Shown here piece after piece: positions 1-21,324 of a stretch of 64,000 bases of DNA. The notes under the pieces were generated by a model that saw nothing but the letters and a program-made list of their open reading frames with translations, made no database searches and was not told where the DNA came from. The first letter of the stretch is position 1; each line of letters starts with the position of its first letter. The position numbers and the translations under genes are program-made. Origin of the DNA: Marinicauda salina (lineage in GTDB: Bacteria > Pseudomonadota > Alphaproteobacteria > Caulobacterales > Maricaulaceae); NCBI RefSeq assembly GCF_003122085.1, contig NZ_QEXV01000001.1, positions 806,001 through 870,000 on the forward strand, written 5' to 3'.

Positions 1-845
1 GCCCGGTCGACATTGAGGACACTGTAGGGCAGATCGAAGGATCGGGCAGGTTCCCGCCTCACATCGAGCGTCGTTCCGAGCGTGGCTTCGACGGCGTCCA
101 CCACTTCCAGCTCGCTCAACCCGTGACCGGATCCGATGTTGAAGACGCCTGAGAACACCTGGTCGTCGCGTATCTGCTCGACGAGAAAGCTGGCCAAGTC
201 ATCAGCGTCGAAATAGTCGCGCCTATTGCGCCCCTCGCCGAATATGGTGAGCGGCCGGCCTGTCTTCGCCGCAGCGACAGCGGCGGAAACAAGCCCGTGC
301 GATGTGTTCAGCTGCCACCGCCCCACCGGGTTGCCTAGGCGCAAGACCTCGATCCGCGCACCGAACGTCGTATGAAAGTAAGACAATAAATCCTCGACCA
401 GCTTCTTGCCGAGGCCGTACGGGGTGACGGGCATGGTAGGCGCGTCTTCCGAGATCGGAGCGGAATGATTACGCCCATAGATCTGGCCGCCGCTCGACAG
501 ATAGATCAGGTTTGCGGCGGGATTAAGCGCGAAGAGGCGCTCGGCGAATGCGCACGCGTCGATGAGGTTGGTTTCGATCTCGCCTCTCGGGCCGTCGATC
601 TGGCTGGCCGGGCGCGAGCGATGTGCGAAATATACCACCGAGTCAGCCGATCGCAGCACCTCGGAAATCTCGGGCGCGCCTGCGAGCACGCCTCTGACGG
701 ACGGTGCGTTGGTGGACAGGAATTTCAGGTCGGGATTCGGAGATATGCTCTGGCCTTCGAGTCCGGCCCGCTGGATCGCTTCGCAAAAATGGCGGCCGAT
801 GAAGCCAGTGCCGCCGACCATAACGACTCTCGGCTGCGCGACCAC
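1..845 (-). CDS. NAD-dependent epimerase/dehydratase, C-terminus beyond window edge
   Basis: A short-chain-dehydrogenase-type sugar epimerase/dehydratase reads leftward off the window; 281 residues are visible without a stop. The N-terminus has the NAD-binding Rossmann motif GGTGFIG, a strand ending in SSGGQIYG, and the catalytic YxxxK as YGLGK. I chose GTG at 845 because AGGAAAG lies 6-7 nt upstream; ATG at 821 would cut off the first beta strand. It starts 11 nt after the coiled-coil gene and is probably the last gene of the operon acyltransferase, coiled-coil protein, epimerase. It likely remodels a nucleotide sugar for surface polysaccharide. The exact substrate cannot be read, and the end of the protein is missing. 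Confidence 0.85.
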   Translation of the reverse strand, partial: MVAQPRVVMVGGTGFIGRHFCEAIQRAGLEGQSISPNPDLKFLSTNAPSVRGVLAGAPEISEVLRSADSVVYFAHRSRPASQIDGPRGEIETNLIDACAFAERLFALNPAANLIYLSSGGQIYGRNHSAPISEDAPTMPVTPYGLGKKLVEDLLSYFHTTFGARIEVLRLGNPVGRWQLNTSHGLVSAAVAAAKTGRPLTIFGEGRNRRDYFDADDLASFLVEQIRDDQVFSGVFNIGSGHGLSELEVVDAVEATLGTTLDVRREPARSFDLPYSVLNVDR

Positions 846-856
846 GATGCTCTTTC

Positions 857-1855
857 CTATTGCGTCTGCGATCGAGCGCCGGAGGTGTGTCCCTCAAGCT
901 TATCGATCCGATTTCCCAGCTCGCCGACCGTTCGTTCAAGATGCTCGATCACGCGGGCTTCATTGCCGCTTTCCCGCTCGGCCTGGCGCATCAGCTCGTT
1001 GAGTTCGCGCCGAATCGCGAACACTCGATCATGAAGCGGATCGACGTCTTTCAGAAGCGAGCTTTCGCAGCGATCTAGGCGTTCGTGGGTTGAGCGGAGC
1101 TTTGCCGCCAGGTCGTCATGGCGCTCTGCGATCTGGTTGAGGCCGCCCTGGAGCTGATCGCTTGTCCGCTGGTGGTCGTCCGAGACCCGCTGGATCTGCC
1201 GGCTGAGCGAGTCGATTTCGCCATGCAGCGTCTCTCCGTACCGCGCCGCATCTTCACGCGTTCGCCCGAGAATTTCGTTCTTGCTGGCTTCTATCCGCTC
1301 CTCCATTTCGGCGTCCAGGCGCAAAACCCTTGCATTCAGATCGCCTACTCTTTGCTCAAGGGTCTCCCGAAGCGCATCCAATTTCTGGCGGTGGCCTTGA
1401 CTCTTCGACTGGTAGCTCTGCGCCAAGCGGTCTTCCACTTGTCGGATCTGCTCCTCCATTTCCGCACCAAGCTTCGAGACGTCCAGCAAGACCCGCCCCA
1501 GCTCTTCGCGAACTCCGAGAATTTCGCGCGATCTATCGTTCATCATCGTGCGCATATAGCTCAGGAGAAGTGCGAGCGTAAGCAGGGCGCTGATCACGAT
1601 GAGGGCGACGGCCCCAGCGAGCACGTGCTCGGTGAAGATCGTTGTCGAGCCGGCCGCGACGGCAGCAATTAACGAGACCCAGAACAAGCGTGTGCGCGGC
1701 GACAGGCCATGGCGAAAAGTCCAGACGCTGAAATCAAGGATGGACCCGGCCGGAGAGCCTGAACGGCGAAGGCCTGCCAAACGTCGTCTCAAACCGCTCG
1801 CGGCTCTAGAGGGCATGCGGTGGGCTCCGAGCAGCCGATGTCTCAGTCCTGCCAT
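857..1855 (-). CDS. membrane-anchored coiled-coil protein of unknown function
   Basis: The product is 332 residues from ATG 1855. A basic N-terminus is followed by two hydrophobic segments (about residues 58-74 and 79-99) and then a long, heptad-rich, highly charged coiled coil to the C-terminus (about 105-325). I recognise no family. GTG at 1933 would add 26 basic residues and overlap the upstream acyltransferase stop; ATG 1855 has a GGAG about 10 nt upstream and leaves a 40-nt gap, so I prefer it. Between an acyltransferase and a sugar epimerase on the same strand, it may scaffold or regulate a polysaccharide export or assembly complex. This is inference from position only. Confidence 0.6.
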   Translation of the reverse strand: MAGLRHRLLGAHRMPSRAASGLRRRLAGLRRSGSPAGSILDFSVWTFRHGLSPRTRLFWVSLIAAVAAGSTTIFTEHVLAGAVALIVISALLTLALLLSYMRTMMNDRSREILGVREELGRVLLDVSKLGAEMEEQIRQVEDRLAQSYQSKSQGHRQKLDALRETLEQRVGDLNARVLRLDAEMEERIEASKNEILGRTREDAARYGETLHGEIDSLSRQIQRVSDDHQRTSDQLQGGLNQIAERHDDLAAKLRSTHERLDRCESSLLKDVDPLHDRVFAIRRELNELMRQAERESGNEARVIEHLERTVGELGNRIDKLEGHTSGARSQTQ

Positions 1856-1895
1856 CAGTTTGTTGCTCCGCTCGCGGTTCGTCCGGCGTCCCGTG

Positions 1896-4883
1896 TCATT
1901 CTTCTTGTAAGGCGACGGCTTCCTCAAGCGCACGCTCGACTTCGTTGGCTAGAAGCGGTGCGAGGCTCCGTGAATAGGTGGCGCTTAGGTGATGAGGGTC
2001 TCGATAAACGAGGACGTTACCGACGATTGGCGAACAAACATTAAGTTCGCAGATAAACTCGTTCAAATCCACCACGCGCGCTGACCCTACCGCCTCTCCT
2101 GCCGGCGGGATGGGGTCATATCTGCGCAGAGCCACAGCCCGTGTTTCTGCGCAATGAGAAGGCGCTTCGAGGTGTTCGGCCACGCATTCGGGAACGTCGT
2201 GCGAGAACCGTGGAGTCTGGCGGATCGCGAGCACCGGGATGCCTGCCTCGCCGAGGCGGCGCCAGCTACTAGAGAGGCCTTCGACGACGGCTGCGTTCGA
2301 CGCGTCAGGATCGTCATACCCTGCCGCAAAGGTGCTCGACAGCATGGAAGTCACGACGAGGTCCGGCTGAAGCTCGAGAAGTCTCTCCATGACGGAATCG
2401 TTCCACTGCACACACTCGGGATACTCCTGCCCTCGCAACAGGATCGGGGTTCCAATCAGCGGGCAGCCCGACTTGGTGAACGTGACAAGCCGAAATTCGC
2501 GGGACTCGGCGATCGTGCGCAGCGCTGGGACCCAATGCGCGGCATGGCTGTCGCCGACCAATGCGATCAACGCCTTCGGGGTCTCCGTTCCATAGGCGCA
2601 CCCGTTAGGAGCGACATCATCGCGCCTGGCGTGGCAGCCTTCCCTGAACAGCTCGGGGATATCTCTTCGCGCTTCACCGGGCGTTGGCGCGACGGGGGCG
2701 TCCCCTCGGGCTCGCAAGGCTGGATCCGCCAGCGTCATGGCGCCTGGGTGATCGCCCAAAGACTGGCCGAGATCGATGAACTCACTCCGCCTCTCTTGGC
2801 CGCCGGCGGTCGCCTCTATGCTGACGGTGGAGTCAATACGCGTGCCGGGTTCCACCAGGGGAACGACATGACGTGCGAGCACCGGCGCCAACGTGCGGGA
2901 GTACGTCGCAGTGAGATGATGAGCGTCGCGGTAGACAAGCACGTTGCCGATCACGGGCGGACAGGTTTCTTCGCGACAGATCGCGTCGTTCATGTTCACG
3001 CTCGGGACTCCGGCCCGACCGGCCGCCTCCGCGACATGCGTCGCCGTCCCCGTCACCGCAGCCCGTGCGCGCACGCACGGTTCGAGGTCTTCGCGATGCG
3101 TCGCCACGCAATCGGGGATCTCGAAATCAAACCGCGGCGTGTGTTCGATCGCCAGAACGTTGATTCCGGCTTCCCGAAGACGCGCATAGGCCTCGCTCAA
3201 GCCAGCGACGACCGCCTCGTCGCTCTGTGCGGGGTCCGCGACCGCCAATCTGGTGTTTGCGATTTTGGCGGTGACCACGAGATCAGGCTGCAAGGCGAGG
3301 AGCGAGTCCATGACATTATCGTTCCATTCCGTGCAGCTTTCGTACCGCTCGCTGCCCCGCACGACCTCTCCTCGCAGGAACGGGCAGGCAGACTTGGTGT
3401 GCGTGATTAGCTGGTAGCCGCGCTCCTGCGCGATCAGGCGTAGCGCCGGCGCCCACTGAGCGGCGTGAGAGTCTCCAACGAGCGCGACAACCTGCCCGCC
3501 GTCAAGCGATTCTCCATAGGAGCATGGGTTCGCATCTGCCGAGAATTGGTCGACATGACATCCGTCCGCGTAAACCGATGGGTTGTCGCGCAGTGCCGCC
3601 TCGAGCGCCGGGATGAATGCCGTCGCGTCGGGCGGATCAAGCAACGGGTCGACCAGCGCCATGGCTCCGGGGTAGTCGCCGTAGTCGAGCGAGAGGCGAA
3701 CCGCCTGGCGCTGAGCGATCAGGCTGGGGGCGATGAGGGTCGCGGCGGCGATGCAGGAGCCGGCGAGGTAGAGCGCGCCTACGCCATAGCTGCGCGCTGC
3801 GCCCGTTCCGGCCGGGCGGTCCCGGAAGCGGTCCTCGATATGAAACTTTGATGCATGGGCGAGGGCGACCGAAATCACCGCGAGGCCTAGCCCCTCGGCG
3901 AGGTTGAAAGGGCTGCTTAGCCCGGCGGCGGCGAAGATAATGACGGGCCAATGCCACAAGTATAAGGAGTAGGAGATGTCCCCGAAATAACGCATCGGCG
4001 GCAGGGACAGCATCGCGCCGGGATCCCGCCAGAGCGGGGAGTGGGGCGTGATCAGGAGGAGGGCTGCGCCAACCGTCGGCAGCAGAGCGGCATAGCCAGG
4101 AAACGCGGTTTGTTCTGTGTATATGAAGCCGGCGGCGAGAATAAACGCGACGCCAGCCCAGCGCAGGGCGGAGGAGGTGAACGGCCCCGGCTTCACGTAA
4201 GGGTGCGCCACCGCGACCATGCCGCCGAGGGCCAACTCCCAGGCGCGCGCTTGCGTGAGAAAGTAGGTCCCGTCGTCCTGCGGCGTGCTGATGATCGAGA
4301 TTGCGAGCGAGGCGGCGAAAACTGCGGAGAAGACGAGGAAAAACAGGATGCGCTCGGGCGCTCTGCAAGCGCGCGCCGTCACCGCGGTCAGCCAAATGAA
4401 CAACGGCCAGAAAATATAGAACTGTTCCTCGATCGACAGAGACCAGTAATGCTGAAACGGGCTGGGTTCATATTCGCCATTAAGATAGTCAATAGACTGA
4501 AAGTATAAGAAGAAATTCTCGAAATAAAATGCGCTTGCGATGATCTCCCACCCAATGTTCTCCCAGCGCGTCGGCGGCAAAAAGTGGATCGTCGCCGGCG
4601 CGGAGATCGCGAGGGCTGCGCTGGCCGCGGGAAGGAGCCGCCGAATGCGGCGCTCATAGAAATTGATCAGCCTGACCCGGCCGTCACGCTCGACATTACG
4701 CAGGAGGATGCCGGTGATCAGGAACCCGGAGATTACGAAGAAGACGTCGACGCCGACGTAGCCGCCGCTGAGGCGCTCGGGAAAAATGTGAAATACGAGC
4801 ACCAGCAACACCGCGACTGCTCGCAGTCCCTGAATGTCCGGCCGAAACGCGTCACCCGCTCGTCCAGTCTTATGCGCGTTCAT
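1896..4883 (-). CDS. acyltransferase-3 family protein with two tandem SGNH domains
   Basis: This OafA/YrhL-type membrane O-acyltransferase (995 residues) probably acetylates a surface glycan. Residues 13-350 are the multi-pass acyltransferase domain, with the R-x10-H motif as R21...H32. A periplasmic SGNH hydrolase-like domain follows, and it is present twice: copy 1 about 403-678 (GDSH 470-473, DxxH D653/H656) and copy 2 about 711-988 (GDSH 777-780, DxxH D962/H965). Both copies keep the nucleophile Ser and the Asp-His pair, and both open with a matching G-D-(Y/H)-P-G-A-M segment. Relatives are usually about 650-700 residues with a single SGNH domain. It heads a minus-strand operon and is divergent from the giant glycosyltransferase gene. 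Confidence 0.9.
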   Translation of the reverse strand: MNAHKTGRAGDAFRPDIQGLRAVAVLLVLVFHIFPERLSGGYVGVDVFFVISGFLITGILLRNVERDGRVRLINFYERRIRRLLPAASAALAISAPATIHFLPPTRWENIGWEIIASAFYFENFFLYFQSIDYLNGEYEPSPFQHYWSLSIEEQFYIFWPLFIWLTAVTARACRAPERILFFLVFSAVFAASLAISIISTPQDDGTYFLTQARAWELALGGMVAVAHPYVKPGPFTSSALRWAGVAFILAAGFIYTEQTAFPGYAALLPTVGAALLLITPHSPLWRDPGAMLSLPPMRYFGDISYSLYLWHWPVIIFAAAGLSSPFNLAEGLGLAVISVALAHASKFHIEDRFRDRPAGTGAARSYGVGALYLAGSCIAAATLIAPSLIAQRQAVRLSLDYGDYPGAMALVDPLLDPPDATAFIPALEAALRDNPSVYADGCHVDQFSADANPCSYGESLDGGQVVALVGDSHAAQWAPALRLIAQERGYQLITHTKSACPFLRGEVVRGSERYESCTEWNDNVMDSLLALQPDLVVTAKIANTRLAVADPAQSDEAVVAGLSEAYARLREAGINVLAIEHTPRFDFEIPDCVATHREDLEPCVRARAAVTGTATHVAEAAGRAGVPSVNMNDAICREETCPPVIGNVLVYRDAHHLTATYSRTLAPVLARHVVPLVEPGTRIDSTVSIEATAGGQERRSEFIDLGQSLGDHPGAMTLADPALRARGDAPVAPTPGEARRDIPELFREGCHARRDDVAPNGCAYGTETPKALIALVGDSHAAHWVPALRTIAESREFRLVTFTKSGCPLIGTPILLRGQEYPECVQWNDSVMERLLELQPDLVVTSMLSSTFAAGYDDPDASNAAVVEGLSSSWRRLGEAGIPVLAIRQTPRFSHDVPECVAEHLEAPSHCAETRAVALRRYDPIPPAGEAVGSARVVDLNEFICELNVCSPIVGNVLVYRDPHHLSATYSRSLAPLLANEVERALEEAVALQEE

Positions 4884-5159: not shown

Positions 5160-8100
5160 ATGACGAAGCGACGTGATACGTCGGATGCTGCGAGCGATCG
5201 ATTCGCGCCGGAAGCGGAATCGGCGACTACCATCGCGGGCGGGGCTTCGCGACCCGTCGCGCTACTTGTTCTGGGTATGCACCGATCCGGCACCTCGGCC
5301 TGGACCGGAGTGCTGGAGCGGCTTGGCGCGGCGGGCCCCAGGACGCCCCTTCCTCCCAACGAAGCCAACCCCAAAGGCTACGCCGAATCCCGTCAGCTGA
5401 TGCAGCTGCATGAGCGGATGCTCGCTGAATCCGGTTCGAGCTGGGACGACTGGTCGACCTTCAATCCGGACTGGGGGAAGTCGCAAGCCGGCCAGAGCTA
5501 TGGAGAGCAGATTAGAGCGCTGGTCGATTCCGAATACGGCGGTTCGGATGTCATTGCGGTCAAGGACCCTCGAATCTGCCGCTTTGCCAAGTACTGGATC
5601 GAGGAGGTCGAACGCGGTGGTTACGATGTGCGCGTCCTCCATGTGCTGCGCAACCCGCTTGAGGTCGCCCAGTCGCTTCAAGCGCGCGATGGAATGGAGA
5701 TTCTGCGCGGATTATTGCTCTGGCTGCGTCACGTGCTCGACGCCGAAGCGGCGACCCGGAGCAAGCCGCGAGTCTTCGCGCGCTATGAAGCCCTGGTTGA
5801 AGACTGGAGGAGGCAGATAAGCCGCGTCGGCGACGCGCTGCAGGTCGCCTGGCCGCGCCGCTCCCCGGCCGTCGATCTCGAGATTGATGATTTTCTCACT
5901 GGCGCCTTGCGCCGTCAGCAGGTTGATCGGGACGCGCTGGAGTCAAGCAGCGCGGTGCCTTCATGGGTGGCCGAGGTCTACGACCTGCTCGCCCGGGCGG
6001 CTTCGACCGGGGAAATGGACGCTCAGGCCAAGCGCCGCCTCACCCAGATCCGTGAGACTTTCGATCAGTCGAGCGCCGTTTTCGCGCCGCTGGTGGCGCG
6101 CGCGGACAGGCAGATGGCTGCGTATCGCGATCGCCTCGACGCAGCCAGTGCTCAGGCGCGCGACGCAAACGAGGAATTGGAGCAGACGCGCGCGGACCGC
6201 GACTCTCTGAAGCGCGAGCTCGCCAAGATGGAGAGCGCGGCCGGGGCGCGGCAGCGCGAACTCAACGTGATTCGCTCGGAGCGCGCCACGCTCCAGCGGA
6301 AGCTCGTCGAGGCGCGGTCGGACAGCGAACGCCTGCGAAACCATCTGGACGCTCTTCAGGTTTCGACCGAAGAACTCGAGTTCAAGCGGGAGGCTCTGAG
6401 CCGTGAACTCGCACGGTGGAAGATGCGTTCGGCCGCCACGCCTGCCAGCGCGACAGACGCCGCCGGCTCTGAGGTCGTCCGCACTCTTCGCGAGGAGCGC
6501 GCCCGTCTCGTCGAGGCCGTCGAGGGTTTGCGCGGTCAGCTGCGCGACGCAGAAGAACGCGAGCGCGATCTGCATCGCCGCCTGTTTTCTCTGACGCCGC
6601 TGGCCGGTGAGGCGTCGGGAAGCGGGCCGTCGGAGCGCGTAGCGCGGCAGATCGAGCACCTCAAGAAGGAGCGTGACTACTGGGTTGAGCAAGCGAAGAA
6701 TGCGCGAGGATGCGGCGAAGATGCCGATCTTCAACTGACCCGGATGCAGGCGCAGCTCGACTCTGCAAACGCAGGCCTGAATCAGGAGCGTGAGCGACGC
6801 AAGGCGTTGCGCAAGCAGATGATCAGGCAGCTCCAGCGCATCCAGCTGGGCAAGCCTGTCCCGGCTTCGATGCGCAAACGCTTGGAGGAGTCGCCGGCCT
6901 TCGACTGTGGCCATTATGAGCGCCAGCTAGCCAGGATCGGCCTAGAGTCCCCGGACGATCCCATTGCTCATTTCGTCAATGTAGGGGCGCATGCCGGGAT
7001 CGATCCACATCCGCTGTTCAGCGTGGATTGGTACCTGGCGCGCAATCCGGACGTGGCCGGCCAGGGGCTGAATCCGCTCGCGCACTATCTGGAGTTCGGC
7101 GATAAGGAGGGCCGGTCGCCGCATCCGCTTTTCGATCCACACTACTACTTCAGTCAGAATATGGACGCTTCCCGGGCCGGGAAGGTGTCCCTGTGCCACT
7201 ATCTCAAGCAGGGCTGGCGGGAGGGTCGCGAACCCAACGCATGGTTTTATTCCAGCTGGTATCTCGAACAGAACGAAGACGTTCGCAACGCCGGCCTGTG
7301 CCCGCTTGTGCATTATGTCTTGAGCGGCGAGGCCGAGGGCCGGAGGCCTCATCCCAGCTTTGATCCCGAATGGTATCGCGAACAGCATATCGCTGCGTCG
7401 CCGGAGCTCAGTCCGCTGGCCCACTTTCTCAGCGAGGGGCGCAAGCAGCAATTGGCGACCCAGCAAATGCGCGCCGATCACTGGAGCAACAAGCGAAAGA
7501 CAATCCTAGCGGTCGCGCACTCCGCGGGCGAGAAGCTCTTCGGCGGCGAACGCAGTTTCTACGACGTGGTAAGCTCTCTCGACCCTGAGCGTTTCCGTGT
7601 AATCGTCGTCCTGCCTGTTCCGCATCAGAATTACATAGACCTGATGAGCGGAGTCGCGGACCAGATTCACTTCGTGCGGGGCGCTTGGTGGAGGAATGGG
7701 AACGGTGCTCGCTCCGATGTGCTCGCGCGCTACCAGGAATTGATCGAGAACGAAGGCGTGGATGTCGTCTACGCGAACACCATCGTTCTCAGCGAGCCGC
7801 TTCTTGCGGCGAAAAAATGCGGGGTCCCCGGCATCTGCCATATACGAGAGGCGATCACCGAGGATCCGGATCTGCAGAGTATGATCGGGAAACGGCCCGA
7901 AGAGATCATCGAGGCGGTTCGCGATCGATCCGATTACATCATCGCCAACTCCAGACTGACCGAGCGGATCTTCTCGAAGCCGGGGCGGACCTGCCGGATT
8001 TATAACGCCGTCGATGTGGACGCCTTCGATCGGCCCGCGCCGGACCCCTCCGGGCGACCCCTCGTGGTGGGCATGCTCAGCAGCAATATCCCGAAAAAGG

Positions 8101-10640
8101 GCATCGCCGACGCGGTCGAGCTGGCCGACGCTTCGGAGAAAGCCGGGCTGAGTGTTCGCTTCCGGTTGATCGGCCCGCACACCGACGAGACCAGGCGGCT
8201 TGAGAAGGCCATGGCCGCGTCCGGACCGAAGAACGTCGAGTTTCCGGGTTATGCGTCAGACGCGAAGGAAGCGATCGAGTCCCTCGACGTCGTCATCAAT
8301 TTCTCCCATTTCGCGGAGTCCTTCGGGCGGACGATCGCCGAGGCTTCCGCCATGCGCCGACCGGTGATCGTGTACGATCACGGGGCGTTGCCCGAGGTCG
8401 TCGCGCAGGACGAGACCGGGTTCGTCATTCCCTATCGTGAACCGCTGAAGGCCCTTGAATGCCTCAAGCGATTGAGCGAGGACCCGGAACTCTTCGCCGC
8501 CATGGGCGAAGCGGGACGCGAACGCGCCGTCTCCATGTTCTCGCGCCAGGCGCTGCGCGAACAAGTCAACGAGTTCTTGGAGACCGTGACGCGCAACGCG
8601 GGCTCGGAGGCCCGCCGCGCGGGCGACAAGACTCAACCGCGGAAGCCCGGCCGCGCGACGGAGGCGGTGCCGGTATCGGTGATCGTGCCGAACTACAATT
8701 ACGAGGGCTATCTGCCGGAACGGTTGAATTCGATCCTCGAGCAGACTCGGAAGCCGGCGGAGATAATTTTCCTCGATGACAACTCTTCGGACGACAGCGT
8801 TGCGGTCGCCCGTGGGATCCTGGAAGACAGCGATATCCCCTTCAAAATCATCGCTAATGAGACGAATCGGGGCGTCTATCGCCAATGGCTGACCGGCATC
8901 GCCGAGGCTGGTCAGCCATGGGTCTGGATCGCCGAGGCCGACGACCGCTGCGAACCCGACTTCCTGGAAAGTCTGATGGCGAAAGCCGAAAAGAGCGTCA
9001 ATCTGATCTACTCCCAGTCGAAAAAGATCGACGATGAAGGCATCGTCACAGCTGAAGACAACCGCGCGCATACCGATGACATCTCTCAGACGCGCTGGAA
9101 CTCAGACTATGTGGAGGTCGGTGTACGCGAGGTTTCCGACGCGCTGATTTATCGGAACACCGTTCCTAATGCGAGCGCGGCGCTATTGCGTAAATCCGCC
9201 GTTGCGGGCATCGAGAGTAAGCTCGCTGAGATGCGCTATGCGGGCGACTGGATGCTCTACGGCCACTTGCTGCGTGGAGGAAAGGTGGCGTTCGTCTCGC
9301 GTTCGTTGAACCATTTCCGTCGGCACGCAAGTACGGTGACCAGCACGCAAGGCAAGTCGATCGCCTATCTTGAAGAGCTTGCTCGCATCCGCGAGTATTT
9401 CACCCAAAACTTCCCTGTCTTGCCGCGCCATATTGAGCGGATGGACTGGTTTCTGAACCGCGATTACAAGATAGAGGGCGTGGAGCAAAACTCCCGGGCC
9501 GAGGCGGTCAGCGGCATTCTTAAGCGCGCCGAGGCCAACACGCGCGAGCGGGCGCGCATCGCCTTCATCACGACGAATAACGGCTCCCATTATGGGGGCA
9601 GCGAGATGCTGTGGCGCGAGACCGCCATGGAAATGTGCGAACGCGGCCACGATGTCTTCGTGCTGATCAAGGCTTGGGAGCCGCGTCCGGACTTCTTTGA
9701 CGAGCTTGAGCGCGCCGGCGTCAAGCTTCTTTTCAAGGAAGACGACGGCTTTGACCAGCTGGTGGCGCGCAAGCCGGACCTCACCGTGGTCTCGATTGGC
9801 GACCAGGATGAGGGAACGGAATTCTATCAGCGGCTCGACGCGGAAAACCTGCCCTACGTGATCGTTAACCAGCTCACCAAGGAGCCGCGCTTCTGGCCGG
9901 TGCGCAAAGACAGGATCGAGGCTGTCCGAGCAGGTTACCAGAACGCGGAGAAGGTCTTTTTCACATGTTGGAACAATCACCGGGTCATGGAGGAGCGTCT
10001 CGGCGCGAAGGTCGCGAACGCTGAGTTGCACTTTAATCCGTACCATGTCGACCGCAATCAGGCGCTCCCTTGGCCGGAGAGCGAGCGGTTGCAGGTGGCG
10101 ATCCCGTCAAAGCTGCTCTTCATTCATAAGGGACAAGACATTCTCGTCGAAGTCGCCACGAAGGACCGATGGAAAGAGCGGCCTATCACGTTCAATTTCT
10201 ATGGGGTCGGTCCGGATGAAGAGCGCCTTCGCGAGATGGCGCAGGAGGCGGGGATCGAGAATTTCCACCTGCACGGGCGCGTGTCGGATATCTCGGTGAT
10301 CTGGCGCGACAACCACGCCCTTCTGATGCCCTCGCGCATGGAGGGCATGCCGATCATGCTTATCAGCGCCATGCTGTCCGCGCGCGTGCCGATTCTCACC
10401 GATATCGGAGGCCACGCAGAGGTGGTGCGTGACAACGAGTCCGGATTCATTGCGGCCAATCCAAACGCGAAGGATCTCGAGGAGGCCTTGGAGCGCGCCT
10501 ACCGGCGCCGCGATGAATGGGCCGGGATCGGTCGCGCGGCGCGCGCCGACGTGCTGGACTTCCTGCCCGCCGAGCCGGTGAACGATTTCGTGGAGAAGCT
10601 GCGCGCGGTGCTCGCGAGTCGGTTTGCGCGAGCAGCCTGA
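5160..10640 (+). CDS. giant sulfotransferase - coiled coil - triple glycosyltransferase
   Basis: One 1826-residue polypeptide with four enzymatic modules. Residues 32-300 are a P-loop sulfotransferase (GMHRSGTSA at 39-47 for the PAPS 5'-phosphosulfate, VLRNP at 162-166 near the 3'-phosphate site). About 315-560 is coiled coil. Residues 577-763 are five copies of a 38-residue repeat. About 780-1140 is a GT4-type glycosyltransferase (EsFGrtiaEA around 1053-1061). Residues 1171-1400 are a GT2 domain (SVIVPNYN; DD 1206-1207; EADD 1259-1262). Residues 1466-1820 are a second GT4 domain (EGMPIMLISAM). There is no signal peptide or membrane segment, so it is presumably cytosolic or membrane-peripheral. 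It could build and sulfate a repeat unit on one platform. The acceptor is unknown. Confidence 0.9.
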   Translation: MTKRRDTSDAASDRFAPEAESATTIAGGASRPVALLVLGMHRSGTSAWTGVLERLGAAGPRTPLPPNEANPKGYAESRQLMQLHERMLAESGSSWDDWSTFNPDWGKSQAGQSYGEQIRALVDSEYGGSDVIAVKDPRICRFAKYWIEEVERGGYDVRVLHVLRNPLEVAQSLQARDGMEILRGLLLWLRHVLDAEAATRSKPRVFARYEALVEDWRRQISRVGDALQVAWPRRSPAVDLEIDDFLTGALRRQQVDRDALESSSAVPSWVAEVYDLLARAASTGEMDAQAKRRLTQIRETFDQSSAVFAPLVARADRQMAAYRDRLDAASAQARDANEELEQTRADRDSLKRELAKMESAAGARQRELNVIRSERATLQRKLVEARSDSERLRNHLDALQVSTEELEFKREALSRELARWKMRSAATPASATDAAGSEVVRTLREERARLVEAVEGLRGQLRDAEERERDLHRRLFSLTPLAGEASGSGPSERVARQIEHLKKERDYWVEQAKNARGCGEDADLQLTRMQAQLDSANAGLNQERERRKALRKQMIRQLQRIQLGKPVPASMRKRLEESPAFDCGHYERQLARIGLESPDDPIAHFVNVGAHAGIDPHPLFSVDWYLARNPDVAGQGLNPLAHYLEFGDKEGRSPHPLFDPHYYFSQNMDASRAGKVSLCHYLKQGWREGREPNAWFYSSWYLEQNEDVRNAGLCPLVHYVLSGEAEGRRPHPSFDPEWYREQHIAASPELSPLAHFLSEGRKQQLATQQMRADHWSNKRKTILAVAHSAGEKLFGGERSFYDVVSSLDPERFRVIVVLPVPHQNYIDLMSGVADQIHFVRGAWWRNGNGARSDVLARYQELIENEGVDVVYANTIVLSEPLLAAKKCGVPGICHIREAITEDPDLQSMIGKRPEEIIEAVRDRSDYIIANSRLTERIFSKPGRTCRIYNAVDVDAFDRPAPDPSGRPLVVGMLSSNIPKKGIADAVELADASEKAGLSVRFRLIGPHTDETRRLEKAMAASGPKNVEFPGYASDAKEAIESLDVVINFSHFAESFGRTIAEASAMRRPVIVYDHGALPEVVAQDETGFVIPYREPLKALECLKRLSEDPELFAAMGEAGRERAVSMFSRQALREQVNEFLETVTRNAGSEARRAGDKTQPRKPGRATEAVPVSVIVPNYNYEGYLPERLNSILEQTRKPAEIIFLDDNSSDDSVAVARGILEDSDIPFKIIANETNRGVYRQWLTGIAEAGQPWVWIAEADDRCEPDFLESLMAKAEKSVNLIYSQSKKIDDEGIVTAEDNRAHTDDISQTRWNSDYVEVGVREVSDALIYRNTVPNASAALLRKSAVAGIESKLAEMRYAGDWMLYGHLLRGGKVAFVSRSLNHFRRHASTVTSTQGKSIAYLEELARIREYFTQNFPVLPRHIERMDWFLNRDYKIEGVEQNSRAEAVSGILKRAEANTRERARIAFITTNNGSHYGGSEMLWRETAMEMCERGHDVFVLIKAWEPRPDFFDELERAGVKLLFKEDDGFDQLVARKPDLTVVSIGDQDEGTEFYQRLDAENLPYVIVNQLTKEPRFWPVRKDRIEAVRAGYQNAEKVFFTCWNNHRVMEERLGAKVANAELHFNPYHVDRNQALPWPESERLQVAIPSKLLFIHKGQDILVEVATKDRWKERPITFNFYGVGPDEERLREMAQEAGIENFHLHGRVSDISVIWRDNHALLMPSRMEGMPIMLISAMLSARVPILTDIGGHAEVVRDNESGFIAANPNAKDLEEALERAYRRRDEWAGIGRAARADVLDFLPAEPVNDFVEKLRAVLASRFARAA

Positions 10641-11380: not shown

Positions 11381-11385
11381 GAAGC

Positions 11386-12255
11386 TCAGTTGAGATCCGC
11401 CAACCGCATCAAGAAGCGTCCATAATTGGACTTCTTAAACATTTCGGCGCGTTCGCGGAGTTCGTCGATCGTGATCCAGCCTTGTTTGAAAGCGATCTCT
11501 TCCAAACACGCAATCTGCAGGCCTTGACGGCGCTCCAGCGTGCGCACGAAATCGGCCGCGTCCACAAGCGAGCTCACAGTGCCGGTGTCGAGCCAGGCGA
11601 AGCCGCGTCCCATCCGCTCGACCTTCAGATCCCCGCGCTTGAGGTAGGCTTGGTTGACGCTGGTGATCTCAAGCTCGCCGCGCGCCGAGGGTTTGACGTC
11701 GGCGGCGATGTCCAGAACGTCATTGTCGTAGAAGTATAGCCCGGTGACCGCGAAGTTCGATTTCGGTTTCTCAGGTTTCTCCTCGATTGAGAGCACTTGG
11801 CCTGTCTCATCGAACTGGACCACGCCGTAGCGCTCCGGATCGGTCACGTGATAGCCGAAGACGGTTGCGCCTTTCTCGCGGGCCGAAGCGGTCTTAAGCA
11901 GGTCGGCGAAGCCGTGTCCGTAGAAAATATTGTCGCCGAGGATGAGGCAGACTCGGTCGCCGCCGACGAAATCCCGCCCGAGAATGAACGCTTGGGCGAG
12001 CCCCTCTGGCCGTGGCTGGATCACATAAGAAAGGCTTATGCCCCATTGTGACCCGTCGCCGAGGAGGCGCTTGAAGGCGGACTGGTCTTCCGGCGTGGTG
12101 ATAATGAGTATTTCGCGGATCCCCGCATGCATCAGCACCGATAAAGGATAGTATATCATCGGCTTGTCATAAATGGGGAGCAACTGCTTGGAAGTTGCCA
12201 GAGTAATCGGATTAAGCCGCGTTCCACTGCCGCCTGCTAGCACGATGCCCTTCAT
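11386..12255 (-). CDS. rmlA: glucose-1-phosphate thymidylyltransferase
   Basis: RmlA/RfbA joins dTTP and glucose-1-phosphate to dTDP-glucose, the first step toward dTDP-L-rhamnose. The 289-residue product has the expected length and the nucleotidyltransferase signature [20 protein letters not shown] at its start, followed by the [10 protein letters not shown] and [10 protein letters not shown] segments. It is divergent from rmlC across 206 bp. Its stop lies 5 nt from the end of the transposase remnant, which converges on it. The middle genes of the pathway, rmlB and rmlD, are not in the window. Confidence 0.95.
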
Positions 12256-12461
12256 AAATGGGGACCTCTTCAGCTTGTGAAATTGATGGCGCTGCGCGCG
12301 CGTATAGCGTGCATGCCGCTAACAAGAAAGTGCGTTAGGCGACATGGGTGGTTTGGTTCCAAATCGCCTTTGGAGCGACACGGCGCGCTCCGCACTGGCG
12401 GGGCGGAAGCTCCTATTGTATGCAGGGTTTTCTGAAGCTCAATCACGAAATGGCGCGCGTC
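12256..12461. promoter_or_regulatory. rmlA-rmlC divergent intergenic region
   Basis: The 206-bp spacer between divergent rmlA and rmlC should carry both promoters. It is less GC-rich than its surroundings near the rmlC start. An in-frame extension of the rmlC frame reaches 12348, but that extra N-terminus does not look like RmlC. No operator was recognised. Confidence 0.35.
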
Positions 12462-13025
12462 ATGAATGTAGACTGTCTTGATATTCCGGACGTAAAAGTT
12501 GTTGCACCTGCTCGTTTTTCTGATGAGCGAGGTTTCTTTTCAGAGGCGTACAATGAACGCAGCTTCGCTGCGGCGGGAGTTGATGCGCGATTTGTTCAGG
12601 ACAACCACTCCTATTCGGCGAGCGTCGGCACGGTAAGAGGTCTTCATTTTCAGAGCCCGCCCTATGCCCAGGCCAAGCTCGTGCGGGTCGCTGTCGGGCG
12701 CATCTTCGACGTTGCGGTCGACATTAGGCGCGGTTCGCCGACCTTCGGCCATTCGGTTGCAGTGGAGCTCAGCGCCGACACAGGCAATCAGTTGTTCATT
12801 CCAGCCGGATTTCTACATGCCTTCATGACGCTCGAGCCAGACACCCATGTGCTTTACAAGGTTGATGCGTTTTATTCACGCGAACATGACGGGTCGGTCC
12901 GCTTTGATGATCCCGACCTCGCGATCGACTGGCCCCTGCCAGCTGAAGAGGCTGTTCTTTCGAAGAAGGACGCTGCCGCGCCATCCTGGGCGGAGTTTGA
13001 ATCGCCTTTTCAGTATGAGCGGTGA
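12462..13025 (+). CDS. rmlC: dTDP-4-dehydrorhamnose 3,5-epimerase
   Basis: RmlC inverts C3 and C5 of dTDP-4-keto-6-deoxyglucose on the way to dTDP-rhamnose. From ATG 12462 the protein is 187 residues, normal for the family, and opens with the usual strand pattern (DIPDVKVVAPARFSDERGFF). The catalytic histidine is in RGLHFQ and the catalytic tyrosine region is VLYKVDAFYS. An ATG at 12450 would add only four residues; the ribosome site is weak for both. It is a cupin-fold cytosolic dimer acting with RmlA, B and D. Confidence 0.93.
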   Translation: MNVDCLDIPDVKVVAPARFSDERGFFSEAYNERSFAAAGVDARFVQDNHSYSASVGTVRGLHFQSPPYAQAKLVRVAVGRIFDVAVDIRRGSPTFGHSVAVELSADTGNQLFIPAGFLHAFMTLEPDTHVLYKVDAFYSREHDGSVRFDDPDLAIDWPLPAEEAVLSKKDAAAPSWAEFESPFQYER

Positions 13026-13285
13026 GCGTTCGATGAGCTGAGCGACGCTCGGTTCGCGCGGCGGTGAGCGATGCACCCGACGGTTGAGGGGTGGCGAGCA
13101 AGCTGCGCTGGGGCCGGAGATTTCGAAAACCGCTGCGTCGCGCCGGGTTCGCGGCCCAAATGCGTTCGAGGCGCGAACGAGCGGCCAGGCCAGGCGTCTG
13201 AAAGGGCTGTCGCTGCCGCCTTGCTATGGGGGCGGACATCGGTCACAAGAGCCGTTTATTTTGTCGGAGTCGGGATCGAGACAGC

Positions 13286-14062
13286 ATGAAGGATCCAATA
13301 TTCATCGTTGGATCGGGGCGGTCGGGCACGAGCGTCCTGCTCAACACGATACGAAAGTCCCTCGAGATTCCTGGGCATGGGGAAGGCCACTTCTTTCCCC
13401 TCATTCGCGAAGTCAATCGAACGATCAACGGGTACTTCGATCGGCGGAAGGCCCAAGCGGAAAACGAACGCCACCTTCTCCACCATGTCGACGTGAAGGG
13501 TTTCCGCAAGCAGTTCGCCGCGACCATTCGGGACGTCTATAAAGCCCAATACGGAACCGAGGGCTTTATCGACAAGACGCCCGGCCTGCAAGGGGTCAAG
13601 GCGATCCCGCAAATGCAGGCCGCGTTCCCGAATATGCGCGTGGTGTTCGCAAAGCGCCGCGGGATCGAGGTCGTCCGGTCGGCCATGCGCAAGTTCCCGC
13701 ACGCCGATTTCAAAACCCATTGCGAAATCTGGCGCGATTGCATGGCGAGCTGGGCGGTCAGCCGGCCGAAGCTCCGCTGCGGCTATGTCGAGATCGACCA
13801 ATTCGATATCGCCAACGCCCCCGAGAAGGTCGTCGATAAGTTGGGAGCGCTGCTTGAAATCGAGGACGGCGCTCGGGAGAGAATGCTCTCCTTCTTCAAG
13901 AGCGACCGACCTCAATCGAGCGGGTCGCTAAACTCGGTGCCGTGTTCAATCGACAACGCTGATTGGTCAGAAGACCAGATCCAATCCTTCCGCGAAATTT
14001 GCGGGGGTATGATGGATGTCTACGGATATTCGGAGTCTGACCAATATTTCAAATCAGGCTAG
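13286..14062 (+). CDS. sulfotransferase family protein
   Basis: This 258-residue P-loop sulfotransferase opens with FIVGSGRSGTSVLL, the PAPS-binding loop, at residues 5-18. The region RRGIEVVRSAMRKF fits the 3'-phosphate-binding RxxxxxxxS segment. The start ATG 13286 puts the P-loop at the usual distance from the N-terminus; an upstream in-frame ATG at 13226 adds an unconserved tail. There is no signal peptide. Placed after rmlC and before sugar aminotransferase and glycosyltransferase genes, it probably sulfates a surface glycan or its precursor. The 260 bp upstream (13026-13285) shows no credible gene. Confidence 0.85.
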   Translation: MKDPIFIVGSGRSGTSVLLNTIRKSLEIPGHGEGHFFPLIREVNRTINGYFDRRKAQAENERHLLHHVDVKGFRKQFAATIRDVYKAQYGTEGFIDKTPGLQGVKAIPQMQAAFPNMRVVFAKRRGIEVVRSAMRKFPHADFKTHCEIWRDCMASWAVSRPKLRCGYVEIDQFDIANAPEKVVDKLGALLEIEDGARERMLSFFKSDRPQSSGSLNSVPCSIDNADWSEDQIQSFREICGGMMDVYGYSESDQYFKSG

Positions 14063-14325: not shown

Positions 14326-14413
14326 CGAAACCATTCGTGACTTTATGGCGTCGCCGGATGCGCCTAGACGCGCCGGCGTCGATCCGCCGCCGCTCCGAGA
14401 GGTCCTGCAATCC

Positions 14414-15541
14414 ATGCCCGAGATGATCCCGTTCATCGATCTCGCCGCCCAGCGCGCGCGCATCCAGGACCGGCTCGACGCCGCGATCGACAAGGTGATC
14501 GGGGAGGGGCGCTACATTCTCGGCCCCGAGGTCGCCGAGCTGGAAGAGCGGCTCTCCGCATACGGACAGGCGCCGCACGCGCTGGCCTGCGCCAACGGCA
14601 CCGACGCGCTCGCGCTGCCGCTGATGGCCTGGGGAATCAAGCCCGGCGACGCGGTCTTCGCGCCGAGCTTCACCTTCGCGGCGACCGCCGAGGTCGTCGC
14701 CTGGCTGGGCGCGACCGTGGTCTTCGTCGACATCGATCCCGAGACCTATTGCATGGATCCCGACCGGCTCGCCGAGGCCGTCGAGTGGGCGAAGGGCCAG
14801 GACGGGCTGAACCCCGCCGTCGTTATCGCCGTCGACCTGTTCGGCCAGCCCGCCGATTATCCGCGCATCGCCGAGATCTGCCGGGAGAATGATCTGAAGC
14901 TCATCGCCGATTCCGCGCAGGGCTATGGCTGCACGCTCGACGGCGAGCATCCCATACACTGGGCCGATGTCGCGACCATCAGCTTCTATCCGGCCAAGCC
15001 GCTGGGCGGCTACGGAGACGGCGGCGCGGTGCTTTGCAAGGACGCCGATCTGCATGCAGTGATGAAATCGCTCCACGTCCACGGCGAGGGCGCCGACCGC
15101 TACGAATACGCGCGCATCGGCATGAACTCGCGCATGGACACCATTCAGGCCGCGGTCCTGCTGGTGAAGATGGACGTCTTCGACGACGAGATCCGGGTGC
15201 GCAATGAGGCCGCCGCGCGCTACGCCGAGGGTTTCGGCGATCTCGTCCGCCCCCACAAGGTGATCGAGGGCGGCCGCTCGGTCTGGGCCCAGTACACCAT
15301 CGAGGTCGATGACCGCGACGGGTTCCGCGCCGCGCTCGCCGATCGCGGCGTGCCGACGGCGGTCTATTATCCCCGGCCGCTGCACATGCATCCGCCGTAT
15401 GCGGATTATCCCCTCGGCCCGGGCGGGCTGCCCGTCACCGAGGCCGCCGCAGACCGCGTCGTCTCGCTGCCGATGGACGGCTATCTCGAGGGCGAACGCC
15501 AGCAGCGCGTGATCGAGGCCGTGCGCGCCGCGCTCGGCTGA
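14414..15541 (+). CDS. DegT/DnrJ/EryC1-type sugar aminotransferase
   Basis: A PLP-dependent aminotransferase that moves an amino group onto a keto nucleotide sugar. From ATG 14414 it is 375 residues, typical of the WbpE/perosamine-synthase group. The N-terminus IPFIDLAAQRARIQDRLDAA, the GTDALALPLMAWGI block, the aspartate in DSAQGYG and the PLP lysine in SFYPAKPLGG (K195) are all present. GAGAGG lies 11 nt before the start; an in-frame ATG at 14345 would add 23 unconserved residues. It probably forms an operon with the next glycosyltransferase gene, 4 nt downstream. Confidence 0.9.
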   Translation: MPEMIPFIDLAAQRARIQDRLDAAIDKVIGEGRYILGPEVAELEERLSAYGQAPHALACANGTDALALPLMAWGIKPGDAVFAPSFTFAATAEVVAWLGATVVFVDIDPETYCMDPDRLAEAVEWAKGQDGLNPAVVIAVDLFGQPADYPRIAEICRENDLKLIADSAQGYGCTLDGEHPIHWADVATISFYPAKPLGGYGDGGAVLCKDADLHAVMKSLHVHGEGADRYEYARIGMNSRMDTIQAAVLLVKMDVFDDEIRVRNEAAARYAEGFGDLVRPHKVIEGGRSVWAQYTIEVDDRDGFRAALADRGVPTAVYYPRPLHMHPPYADYPLGPGGLPVTEAAADRVVSLPMDGYLEGERQQRVIEAVRAALG

Positions 15542-15545
15542 CGCG

Positions 15546-16544
15546 ATGACCGGCGGGCGCGTCGCCGATGCGACGATCCTCATCGTCGCCTACCGCGCCC
15601 GGCAGACGGCGCCGCGGCTGGCCGCTGCGCTCGACGCGCTGACGGTGAAGCCCGCGGCGATCCTGATCCTTGAGAACGGATCGCCCGAGGACGAGCGCGT
15701 CGATCCCGCGGACCTGCCCGAGGGCGCCGAGCTGATCGTCAGCGAGGACAATCTCGGCTTCGCCGCGGGCAATAATCGGCTCGCCGAGCGGGCCGAGACC
15801 GAGTGGCTCGTTCTGCTCAACCCAGACGCGTTTCCCAGGCCGGACTGGCTCGCCGAGCTTCTGGCGGCGGCCGAGCGCCACTCCGACGCCGACCTGTTCG
15901 GCTCCACGCAGTGGGCCGCCGACGCGCCCGGCGTGCTCGACGGCGCCGGCGATGTCATGCTCGCCTTCGGCGTTCCCTATCGCGGCGGCTACGGCAAGCG
16001 CATGGACCCGCCGGCCGAAGGCGAGGTGTTCGCGCCCTGCGGCGCGGCGATGATGGTTCGCCGCGACGTGTTCGCCGCGCTCGGCGGTTTCGACGAGGAC
16101 TATTTCTGCTATGTCGAGGACGTCGACCTGGGCTATCGCGCCCGCCTTGCGGGCCGCCGCGTGATCCAGGTGAGCGCCGCCCAGGTCGATCATGTCGGCT
16201 ACGGCGCGACCGGCCGGCGCTCCGAATTCGCCACCTATCACGGCGTCCGCAATCGCTTCTGGTGCTTTTTCAAGAATACGCCGGGCTGGCTGGTCTGGGC
16301 GCTCGCGCCGGTCCACCTGGCGCTGACGGCCGTGTTCTGGCTGTCGGCGGCGCGTTTCGGCCATTTCGGGTTGTTCGGGCGGGCGCTGCGAGATGCGCTG
16401 GCGGGCTGGCCGCGCCTGATGGAGAAGCGTCGCGCCGTACAATCGCGCCGCGCGGCGACCGTCGGCGAGATCGCCCGTGCCCTGGCCTGGAATCCGATGC
16501 GCCTGCTGACCCGCGCGCCCGATGTGCGCGGCGATCGCGGCTGA
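15546..16544 (+). CDS. family 2 glycosyltransferase
   Basis: The 332-residue product resembles rhamnosyltransferase-type GT2 enzymes: an N-terminal strand ATILIVAYRARQTA, then LENGSPEDE, the SEDNLGFAAGNN segment, the metal-binding region LNPDAFP, and the GGFDEDYFCYVEDVDLGYR block. A hydrophobic stretch near residues 258-280 may attach it to the membrane. It would transfer a sugar from a nucleotide donor to a growing polysaccharide or lipid-linked unit. The gene starts 4 nt after the aminotransferase. Confidence 0.9.
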   Translation: MTGGRVADATILIVAYRARQTAPRLAAALDALTVKPAAILILENGSPEDERVDPADLPEGAELIVSEDNLGFAAGNNRLAERAETEWLVLLNPDAFPRPDWLAELLAAAERHSDADLFGSTQWAADAPGVLDGAGDVMLAFGVPYRGGYGKRMDPPAEGEVFAPCGAAMMVRRDVFAALGGFDEDYFCYVEDVDLGYRARLAGRRVIQVSAAQVDHVGYGATGRRSEFATYHGVRNRFWCFFKNTPGWLVWALAPVHLALTAVFWLSAARFGHFGLFGRALRDALAGWPRLMEKRRAVQSRRAATVGEIARALAWNPMRLLTRAPDVRGDRG

Positions 16545-16645: not shown

Positions 16646-17614
16646 ATGCCCGAGATCGACGACGCCGTGCGCCGCTACGCAGCGCGCTTCAAAGACCGCC
16701 CCGAACGCGCCCAGCCGCTGTCGGCGCACCTGCGGGAGCTCGAGGCGGAATCCGTCCACATCATCCGCGAGGTCGCCGCCGAGTTCGAGCGTCCGGTGAT
16801 GCTCTACTCGATCGGCAAGGACTCCGCGGTGATGCTGCATCTCGCGATGAAGGCGTTCTGGCCCTCGCGCCCGCCCTTTCCGCTGCAGCACGTCGACACG
16901 ACGTGGAAGTTCCGCGACATGATCGCCTTCCGCGACGCCATCGCCCGCGAGCTGGGCCTGGAGATGCGCGTCGAGATAAACGAGGAGGGCGTCGAACGGG
17001 GGATCAATCCGATCGACTCGGGCTCGAACCTGCACACCCAGGTGATGAAGACCGAGGCGTTGAGGAACGCCATGGCCCGCCACGGCTACGACGCGGCCTT
17101 CGGCGGGGCGCGGCGCGACGAGGAGAAATCCCGCGCCAAGGAGCGCATCTTCTCGTTCCGGGACGGCAATCACGGCTGGGAGCCGCGCAATCAGCGCCCG
17201 GAACTCTGGCGCAACTTCAACACGCGCATCCGCAAGGGCGAGTCGATCCGCGTCTTCCCGCTGTCCAACTGGACCGAGCTCGACATCTGGCAGTACATCC
17301 TCGAGGAGGACATCCCGATCGTGCCGCTCTACTTCGCCGCCGAGCGGCCGACCGTGGAGCGCGACGGGACCATCGTGATGGTCGATGACGACCGGCTGCC
17401 GCTCGAGCCCGGCGAGACCCCGGTCGATCGCTGGATCCGCTTCCGCACGCTGGGCTGTTATCCGCTCACCGGCGCGATCGAGTCGCGCGCCGCGACGCTG
17501 GAAGAGATCGTCATGGAGATGCTCACCGCGCGCACGTCGGAGCGCTCGGGACGTCTGATCGATTTCGACGAGTCCGGCTCGATGGAGAAGAAGAAGCGCG
17601 AGGGGTATTTCTGA
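16646..17614 (+). CDS. cysD: sulfate adenylyltransferase subunit 2
   Basis: CysD is the catalytic half of ATP sulfurylase, which makes adenylyl sulfate (APS) from ATP and sulfate. The 322-residue product has the PP-loop motif [14 protein letters not shown], then [25 protein letters not shown] and the [15 protein letters not shown] segment typical of CysD. It is about 20 residues longer at the N-terminus than many homologues. The stop overlaps the start of cysNC by one base (TGATG), so the two are translationally coupled, fitting the heterodimer. Confidence 0.97.
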
Positions 17615-19528: not shown

Positions 19529-20275
19529 TCAGCGCTCCTGGCGGACGATCTTGCCGTCGGCGCCGATATGAATGCCGCACTCTGTCTTGTCCTGGTCGGC
19601 CCAGCGCCCGGCGCGCGGGTCGGCCTGCGCGTCGGCGACCGGCGACGTGCACGGCGCGCAGCCCACCGAGGGATATCCGCGCGCAAGGAGCGGGTGATCG
19701 GGCAGGTCGTGCGCGCGGGCGTAGGCGCGCAGATCCTCCGCCGTCCAGTCGTAGAGCGGGTTCAGCTTGAGCTTGCCGTCCTGGATCTCGACGCGCGGCA
19801 GTTCGCTGCGCTCGCCGCCGTGGTGGCGCTTCCGGCCCGAGATCCAGACCTTGTAGGGCTGAAGCGCGCGGACCAGCGGCAGCGTCTTGCGGACGTGGCA
19901 GCACAGGTCGGGATTGCGCTTGTGAAGATCGCCGCCGGGGTCGTCGGCGGCCAGATCGTGGGCGCTCGGCTGGAGCGTCTGCACGTTCGTCAGCCCGAGG
20001 CGTTCGACAAGTTGATCGCGGTACGCCAGCGTCTCGGGGAAGAGCTTGCCCGTATTGATGAACAGCACCGGCGCGTCGGGCGCCACCTTGGCCAGCTGAT
20101 GCAGGATCACGGCGGACTCGGTGCCGAACGAGGAGACCACGCACGCCTCGCCGGGAAAGATCCGCGTGAGCGTGCGCTCGATCGCGCCGGACGCGTCGAG
20201 ATCCTCCAGCGCGGCGTCGAGCGCCTGGGCGCCGGCCTCGAGCGCGAGGCGGTATTCGGATTTCAGTGCGGCCAT
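19529..20275 (-). CDS. cysH: phosphoadenylyl/adenylyl-sulfate reductase, APS-reductase type
   Basis: This reduces activated sulfate to sulfite with thioredoxin electrons. The 248-residue product has the nucleotide-binding SSFGTESAVILHQ, the catalytic KTECGIH (Cys233), and the CC...CxxC pattern C125-C126 and C206/C209. These four cysteines bind the 4Fe-4S cluster of reductases that accept APS directly; PAPS-only enzymes of the E. coli type lack them. Start ATG 20275 has GAGGGG six nt upstream, so the longer frame to 20350 is rejected. It lies 130 bp downstream of cysQ on the same strand. Confidence 0.92.
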   Translation of the reverse strand: MAALKSEYRLALEAGAQALDAALEDLDASGAIERTLTRIFPGEACVVSSFGTESAVILHQLAKVAPDAPVLFINTGKLFPETLAYRDQLVERLGLTNVQTLQPSAHDLAADDPGGDLHKRNPDLCCHVRKTLPLVRALQPYKVWISGRKRHHGGERSELPRVEIQDGKLKLNPLYDWTAEDLRAYARAHDLPDHPLLARGYPSVGCAPCTSPVADAQADPRAGRWADQDKTECGIHIGADGKIVRQER

Positions 20276-20405
20276 TGAAGCCCCTCGAACGGTCCGCGTC
20301 TGCCGCGCCTCGCGCCTGTCCGCAATGCGTCGCCGGGACGCAGGGTCCAACCCAGCATAGCCGGATCGGCGGCCGAACCCACCCCCGGGCCGCGCCGGGA
20401 CGCGC

Positions 20406-21200: not shown

Positions 21201-21324
21201 GTCGGGAAATCTCGGCGCAGTCGGGAAGGGTCGCCCACCATGCCGATCGCGCCGGACAAGGCAAGTCGCGGCGGTTGTTCGACCATCACTTGAACTTTGC
21301 AGCGTAACGACGGATTTTACGATC

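Follow-up and report, generated by a model that had tools for sequence, protein, structure and literature searches.

Few bacterial polysaccharide sulfotransferases have been characterised. In Klebsiella, the proteins WbbB and ORF6-O7 have a coiled-coil ruler with a terminating enzyme at one end and polymerising glycosyltransferase (GT) modules at the other, and all terminated O-antigen examples have a Wzt with a C-terminal CBM (PMC11231755). For sulfated glycans, gene clusters that combine an ABC exporter, rml genes, cysNDC and sulfotransferases are described in Vibrio sp. KMM 8419 (PMC11641403) and Cobetia marina KMM 1449 (PMC11766843), both of which have chemically proven sulfated rhamnose-containing capsules. 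We analysed a stretch of 64,000 nucleotides of Marinicauda salina, hereafter named the window, that encodes a protein resembling the former in layout, within a locus resembling the latter in gene content.

Layout of the 1826-residue protein

Positions 5160-10640 (+) of the window form one uninterrupted frame of 1826 codons. In the encoded protein, a predicted sulfotransferase is followed by a linker, five 38-residue repeats, a GT4 module, a GT2 module and a second GT4 module. The features of the frame are as follows.

5160..10640 (+): predicted sulfotransferase-coiled coil-repeat-GT4-GT2-GT4 protein, 1826 aa (ORF, Pfam, orthologues)
5247..6011 (+): predicted sulfotransferase domain, aa 30-284; 5'-PSB GMHRSGTS 39-46, KDPR 135-138, 3'-PB R164/S172 (alignment, model, fold match)
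6021..6854 (+): long helical/coiled-coil spacer, ~aa 288-565, poorly conserved in sequence (model, orthologue comparison)
6894..7475 (+): five ~38-aa repeats, aa 579-772, all-helical in the model (model, repeat analysis, Pfam)
7497..8609 (+): first GT4 module, aa 780-1150; both Glu of EX7E present (E1053, E1061) (Pfam, alignment, fold match)
8667..9479 (+): GT2 module, aa 1170-1440; D1206/D1207, EADD 1259-1262, GDW 1362-1364 (Pfam, alignment)
9549..10619 (+): second GT4 module, aa 1464-1820; Ser1736 at the second Glu of EX7E (Pfam, alignment)

Pfam detects Glycos_transf_1 twice (1.8e-44), Glycos_transf_2 (3.3e-28) and Glyco_transf_4 (1.5e-13) in the protein. Three other genomes, those of Maricaulis alexandrii (L037, 1994 aa), another Maricaulis species (L161, 2089 aa) and Robiginitomaculum antarcticum (L066, 2011 aa), encode orthologues over the full length, with 41-75% identity per catalytic module, and the frame is therefore real rather than a product of chance. 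The complete GT4-GT2-GT4 set with the same N-terminal half is present in 4 of the 137 genomes of the family, the window genome included. Hence, the layout proposed by an earlier sequence-only reading, with a sulfotransferase, a coiled coil, repeats and GT4-GT2-GT4 in a single frame, is borne out by the ORF, Pfam, the model and the orthologues.

Distribution of the module combination

Phaeobacter sp. G2, Ruegeria sp. PR1b (on pSD20) and a Pseudophaeobacter MAG divide the modules of the 1826-aa protein between two neighbouring genes, the first encoding the sulfotransferase and coiled coil and the second the repeats and GT4-GT2-GT4. Roseobacter plasmids host this two-gene version, and the second Phaeobacter protein is colinear with residues 619-1760 of the 1826-aa protein. 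Such an arrangement argues that the sulfotransferase and the GTs act together.

Searching genomes with a ten-sequence sulfotransferase profile returned at least 80 sulfotransferase loci in Alpha-, Gamma- and Deltaproteobacteria and others. In at least 20 of the 80 matches listed, the sulfotransferase is joined to a detectable GT module, and at least 19 more have a neighbouring gene that encodes a GT or repeat segment; both counts are lower bounds, and 8 further loci run off a contig end. Other fusions have the orders sulfotransferase-coiled coil-WbsX-GT4-GT2, sulfotransferase-GT2-GT2-GT4 and sulfotransferase-repeats-GT4-GT4-GT2 (Sinimarinibacterium, 1944 aa). Judged by these sequences, the sulfotransferase-coiled-coil-GT combination is a modular class in which the GT4-GT2-GT4 order is one variant. 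This domain-architecture scan removes the idea of a one-off combination, since many genomes carry the sulfotransferase-coiled-coil unit, frequently in fusion with GTs, and uniqueness of the fusion is rejected.

In a relative (L122/L156), an apparent 25,156-codon frame that starts in a sulfotransferase is an artefact in which 24,000 codons (72 kb) are masked N. At the same place, a Wzt-like gene ends immediately before the sulfotransferase start. Elsewhere (L049:7887-9182), a Wzt-like ATPase with a C-terminal DUF29 replacing Wzt_C lies beside a sulfotransferase-GT-WbsX fusion. The window genome (2.9 Mb) itself has about eleven Sulfotransfer_3 matches, of which four fall in open frames ~690-770 codons long.

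Genetic environment

The genes that surround the frame are listed below.

3..845 (-): NAD-dependent epimerase/dehydratase-like protein, its frame running off the window edge (synteny, translation)
857..1933 (-): membrane/coiled-coil protein, also next to the locus in Maricaulis and Robiginitomaculum (synteny)
1896..4883 (-): AT3 acyltransferase carrying two SGNH domains (Pfam, synteny)
10811-11739 (+): IS4/5-type transposase, between the 1826-codon gene and rmlA
11386..12255 (-): rmlA, dTDP-rhamnose (NCBIfam)
12348..13025 (+): rmlC, dTDP-rhamnose (NCBIfam)
13226..14062 (+): second, stand-alone Sulfotransfer_3 protein, named ST2 (Pfam, synteny)
14345..15541 (+): DegT/DnrJ/EryC1 sugar aminotransferase (Pfam)
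15546..16544 (+): stand-alone GT2 (Pfam)
16646..17614 (+): cysD, ATP sulfurylase small subunit
17614..19509 (+): cysNC, ATP sulfurylase/APS kinase, the genome's only APS kinase
19529..20350 (-): cysH, with CC...CxxC cysteines of APS-reductase type
20406..21326 (-): cysQ, PAP phosphatase

The epimerase/dehydratase-like gene (3..845) also adjoins the locus in Maricaulis and Robiginitomaculum, ST2 orthologues adjoin it in three of three relatives, and the Robiginitomaculum locus keeps ST2, the rml genes and the exporter. In the window and in both Maricaulis genomes, cysQ-cysNC-cysD lie near the gene together with ST2, rmlA and rmlC; no transposase insertion between the homologous gene and rmlA was seen in the Maricaulis loci. 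The gene wzm is located just left of the window (contig 1, 805092-805886), followed by rmlB, rmlD and wzt. In Pfam, the Wzt of the window genome matches ABC_tran only, without Wzt_C, and with 229-269 aa the Wzt proteins of this genome and its close relatives, the latter having 256-269 aa, leave no room for a C-terminal CBM.

The only cysD and cysH copies of the window genome lie in the locus, which must thus also serve sulfur assimilation. For this reason, the cys genes are not dedicated evidence for glycan sulfation. The CC...CxxC cysteine pattern marks APS reductases. Since CysH has cysteines of this type, PAPS, and with it APS kinase, is probably not needed for assimilation in the window genome; the NCBIfam APS-reductase model TIGR02055 scores below its cut-off on this protein. 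APS kinase is encoded once per genome in all four orthologue-bearing genomes, and in Robiginitomaculum it sits elsewhere in the genome.

Farther along the window, the gene at 35791-38898 (+) encodes a 1035-aa protein with an ArsP_1-type permease, FG-GAP repeats and an ASPIC/UnbV domain, and adjoins a cluster of type II secretion genes at 26-36 kb. It is followed by two neighbouring Sel1-repeat proteins with six strong repeats apiece (38926-41422, +).

A proposed role in assembly and sulfation of a surface glycan

On balance, we favour the view that the 1826-aa protein is a single-chain assembly and sulfation protein for an ABC-exported surface glycan, which would extend a lipid-linked glycan and sulfate it before export. 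The C-terminal GT4-GT2-GT4 part, at the cytoplasmic membrane, would lengthen a lipid-linked glycan that probably contains rhamnose. The N-terminal sulfotransferase, kept at a distance by the coiled coil and the repeats, would move sulfate from PAPS onto this glycan. PAPS would be made by CysD and CysNC and PAP cleared by CysQ, RmlABCD would supply dTDP-rhamnose, and the product would be exported through Wzm/Wzt. What we observe is the gene and module content, catalytic motifs conserved outside the second GT4, the kept synteny and the two-gene version elsewhere, together with a gene set like that of the marine bacteria whose sulfated capsules are proven; we infer the activity, the order of the sugars, the sulfated residue, the membrane site and the polymeric nature of the product.

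Given the ABC polysaccharide exporter encoded in the locus, a polymer appears likelier than an oligosaccharide. The earlier proposal that the protein could build and sulfate an oligosaccharide is well supported as regards building and sulfating a glycan, by the domains, the intact sulfotransferase motifs, the two-gene version and the linkage of PAPS-synthesis and PAP-removal genes, but less so for the size of the product. Nor does the protein look like a self-contained assembly line: rmlABCD, the ABC exporter, the PAPS genes, another GT2 and modifying enzymes would be needed, and one of its GTs is atypical. Several points weigh against the assembly and sulfation reading as a whole. Sulfation of the product could instead be the task of the stand-alone ST2, EX7E is altered in the second GT4, the cys genes are shared with assimilation, the APS-reductase model falls short of its cut-off on CysH, and the APS kinase of Robiginitomaculum is not at the locus. 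If the reading is correct, sulfation and polymer assembly joined in one protein, beside a supply of PAPS, would provide a compact way for bacteria to make a sulfated polysaccharide.

The spacer and a possible chain-terminating role

In the AlphaFold model, long helices occupy residues 288-562. The linker that connects the sulfotransferase to the repeats has ~290 residues in the 1826-aa protein and is mostly coiled coil. Its length is 291, 411, 469 or 480 residues in four orthologues, and its identity drops to 13%, while the catalytic modules stay at 41-75%. From this sequence comparison, the spacer varies in length and sequence and the catalytic parts stay constant. The repeat array that follows consists of five units starting at residue 579, four of them exactly 38 residues long, for which no known family was found in Pfam at E <= 1.

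A linker of such variable length (291-480 aa) and sequence (down to 13% identity) would suit a chain terminator with a ruler, in which the sulfotransferase, by analogy with the N-terminal Kdo transferase of WbbB or the methyltransferase-kinase of WbdD and ORF6-O7, caps the non-reducing end when the chain spans the coiled coil, and the sulfate stops growth. The sulfate cap may also be an export mark. The parts of the protein have the same order as in WbbB and ORF6-O7, and the locus likewise combines rml genes with an ABC exporter (PMC11231755). In addition, the genes for relatives of the sulfotransferase-coiled-coil protein lie near a gene for a Wzt that has the Wzt_C domain, and in many cases follow it immediately, with seven cases confirmed; they are found in Dyella, Rhodanobacter, Stenotrophomonas, Desulfonema, Mesorhizobium and a deltaproteobacterium. 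In known systems, the Wzt_C domain reads the terminal cap. However, neither the Wzt of the window genome nor those of its close relatives have the CBM that all terminated O-antigen examples possess (PMC11231755), and the proven marine sulfated capsules carry sulfate inside the repeat (PMC11641403, PMC11766843). We thus regard termination as a tentative possibility, the confidence of which overlaps that of the assembly and sulfation reading, because a cap is a special case of the latter. It is equally tentative that sulfate at the non-reducing end tells a bacterial polysaccharide chain to stop growing and that the sulfated end is an export signal in the relatives having a CBM-bearing Wzt. For the wider family, the position beside Wzt_C transporters suggests a new chain-termination chemistry.

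The glycosyltransferase modules

The assembly and sulfation reading relies on the C-terminal modules for glycan extension. The first GT4 module has a GT-B fold that matches HepE at Z 33, and E1053 and E1061 of its EX7E motif are kept in all four orthologues. The GT2 module keeps its acidic metal/base residues (D1206/D1207, EADD, D1363), with EADD instead of DADD, a Glu replacing the first Asp of DXD. In the second GT4, where Pfam matches the Glycos_transf_1 profile at residues 1650-1795, the motif reads EGMPIMLIS; the second Glu of EX7E is replaced by Ser1736, and Ser is found in four of four orthologues. Yet this module is among the most conserved ones (64-75% identity across orthologues), which argues that it is under selection but atypical. 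On sequence grounds we consider it GT4-like, with an uncertain sugar-transfer activity. Hence, of the three glycosyltransferases announced by the sequence-only reading, the first GT4 and the GT2 keep their motifs, but the second GT4 has an EX7E altered throughout the orthologues. The structure model of the GT part has a pLDDT of 73 with eight aligned rows and was left out of module-packing arguments; the fold search of this part covered mainly the first GT4.

Three different GT modules would also fit one linkage each, giving a short non-repeating glycan (adaptor, core extension or protein-linked oligosaccharide), while other enzymes encoded in the locus would make the polymer. A stand-alone GT2 is indeed encoded downstream, and a partial scan of the locus proteins showed no Wzy or synthase-type polymerase. 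Nevertheless, we find a short product unlikely: multi-module GTs of this kind are polymerases in ABC-dependent pathways (PMC11231755), and the large exporter locus suggests a polymer.

The sulfotransferase domain

The AlphaFold model of residues 1-779, obtained with 36 aligned sequences (mean pLDDT 84, and ~95 over the sulfotransferase and the repeats), shows a globular domain up to ~residue 284. Its best matches among solved structures are the tyrosylprotein sulfotransferases TPST1/2 (Z ~16, 3.8-4.2 Å, ~212 residues). Further PAPS sulfotransferases match at Z 10-14.5, and these enzymes rank well above other P-loop folds in the structure search, which included Foldseek. Residues G39MHRSGTS46, N70, G73, E76, P137, R138, R164, S172 and W188 are invariant in 36 of 36 aligned proteins, and K135/D136 are nearly so. 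By its invariance alone, E76 is a candidate catalytic base. In Pfam, Sulfotransfer_3 at residues 36-232 reaches 20.3 bits, under a cut-off of 27 bits that is a detection threshold and not a biochemical feature; the orthologue L026 scores 32.3 bits, above it. The assignment holds despite the sub-threshold score, because of the conservation across the 36 proteins and the AlphaFold fold match, and the N-terminal domain is a predicted PAPS-dependent sulfotransferase. The sequence-only reading had made the same assignment and had named loss of key residues as what would overturn it; in the 36-protein alignment, these residues are kept. It had also called for structure prediction, and the model supports the sulfotransferase domain, the long helices and the helical repeat array.

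It is very improbable that this domain belongs to a P-loop relative of another function (glycan-binding or kinase-like) and lacks sulfotransferase activity, any sulfation being left to ST2, since its low Sulfotransfer_3 score (20 vs 27 bits) has to be set against 5'-PSB and 3'-PB residues invariant in 36 proteins, PAPS sulfotransferases as top structural matches and linked PAPS genes.

Comparison with known systems

In a full-text literature search, we found no described sulfotransferase-coiled-coil-GT protein; a chain-termination survey outside this search may list sulfotransferases. The sequence-only reading, which knew this combination from no described system, thus agrees with the literature searched, but the layout is common in genomes and parallels WbbB and ORF6-O7. 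The sulfotransferase-coiled-coil proteins fused to WbsX/GT4/GT2 share with the 1826-aa protein a homologous N-terminal domain, a coiled coil and often the same repeats. They differ from it in their GT sets and orders, and no biochemical characterisation of them was found.

The clusters of strains KMM 8419 and KMM 1449 share the ABC exporter, the dTDP-rhamnose genes, cysNDC(Q) and sulfotransferase genes with the window locus. In contrast, the available parts of the two reports describe sulfotransferases and GTs as separate genes and mention no such fusion.

Like WbbB of Klebsiella pneumoniae O12, the 1826-aa protein has, in one chain, an N-terminal domain in the place of a chain-modifying enzyme, a coiled coil and C-terminal GTs, in an ABC-dependent pathway. 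However, the N-terminal enzyme of WbbB is a beta-Kdo transferase (GT99) combined with two GT modules, instead of a predicted sulfotransferase, 38-aa repeats and GT4-GT2-GT4, and the O12 Wzt has a CBM, unlike that of the window locus. ORF6-O7 of Klebsiella pneumoniae O7 similarly has an N-terminal modifying enzyme, a coiled coil and C-terminal GTs, encoded in an rml-containing ABC locus. In that case, a methyltransferase-kinase is joined to two GT2 modules with no comparable repeat array described, whereas a predicted sulfotransferase and repeats are found here. Two features of the WbbB/WbdD type are therefore present, namely a predicted modifying enzyme and GTs at opposite ends of a coiled coil and an ABC-transporter-dependent locus. 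A Wzt with a cap-reading C-terminal CBM is absent from the window genome and close relatives, and for this reason the protein does not belong to the WbbB/WbdD terminator class as defined, although it may work like one. Overall, what is new with respect to these systems is a predicted sulfotransferase in the modifying position of a single-chain enzyme-coiled coil-GT assembly protein.
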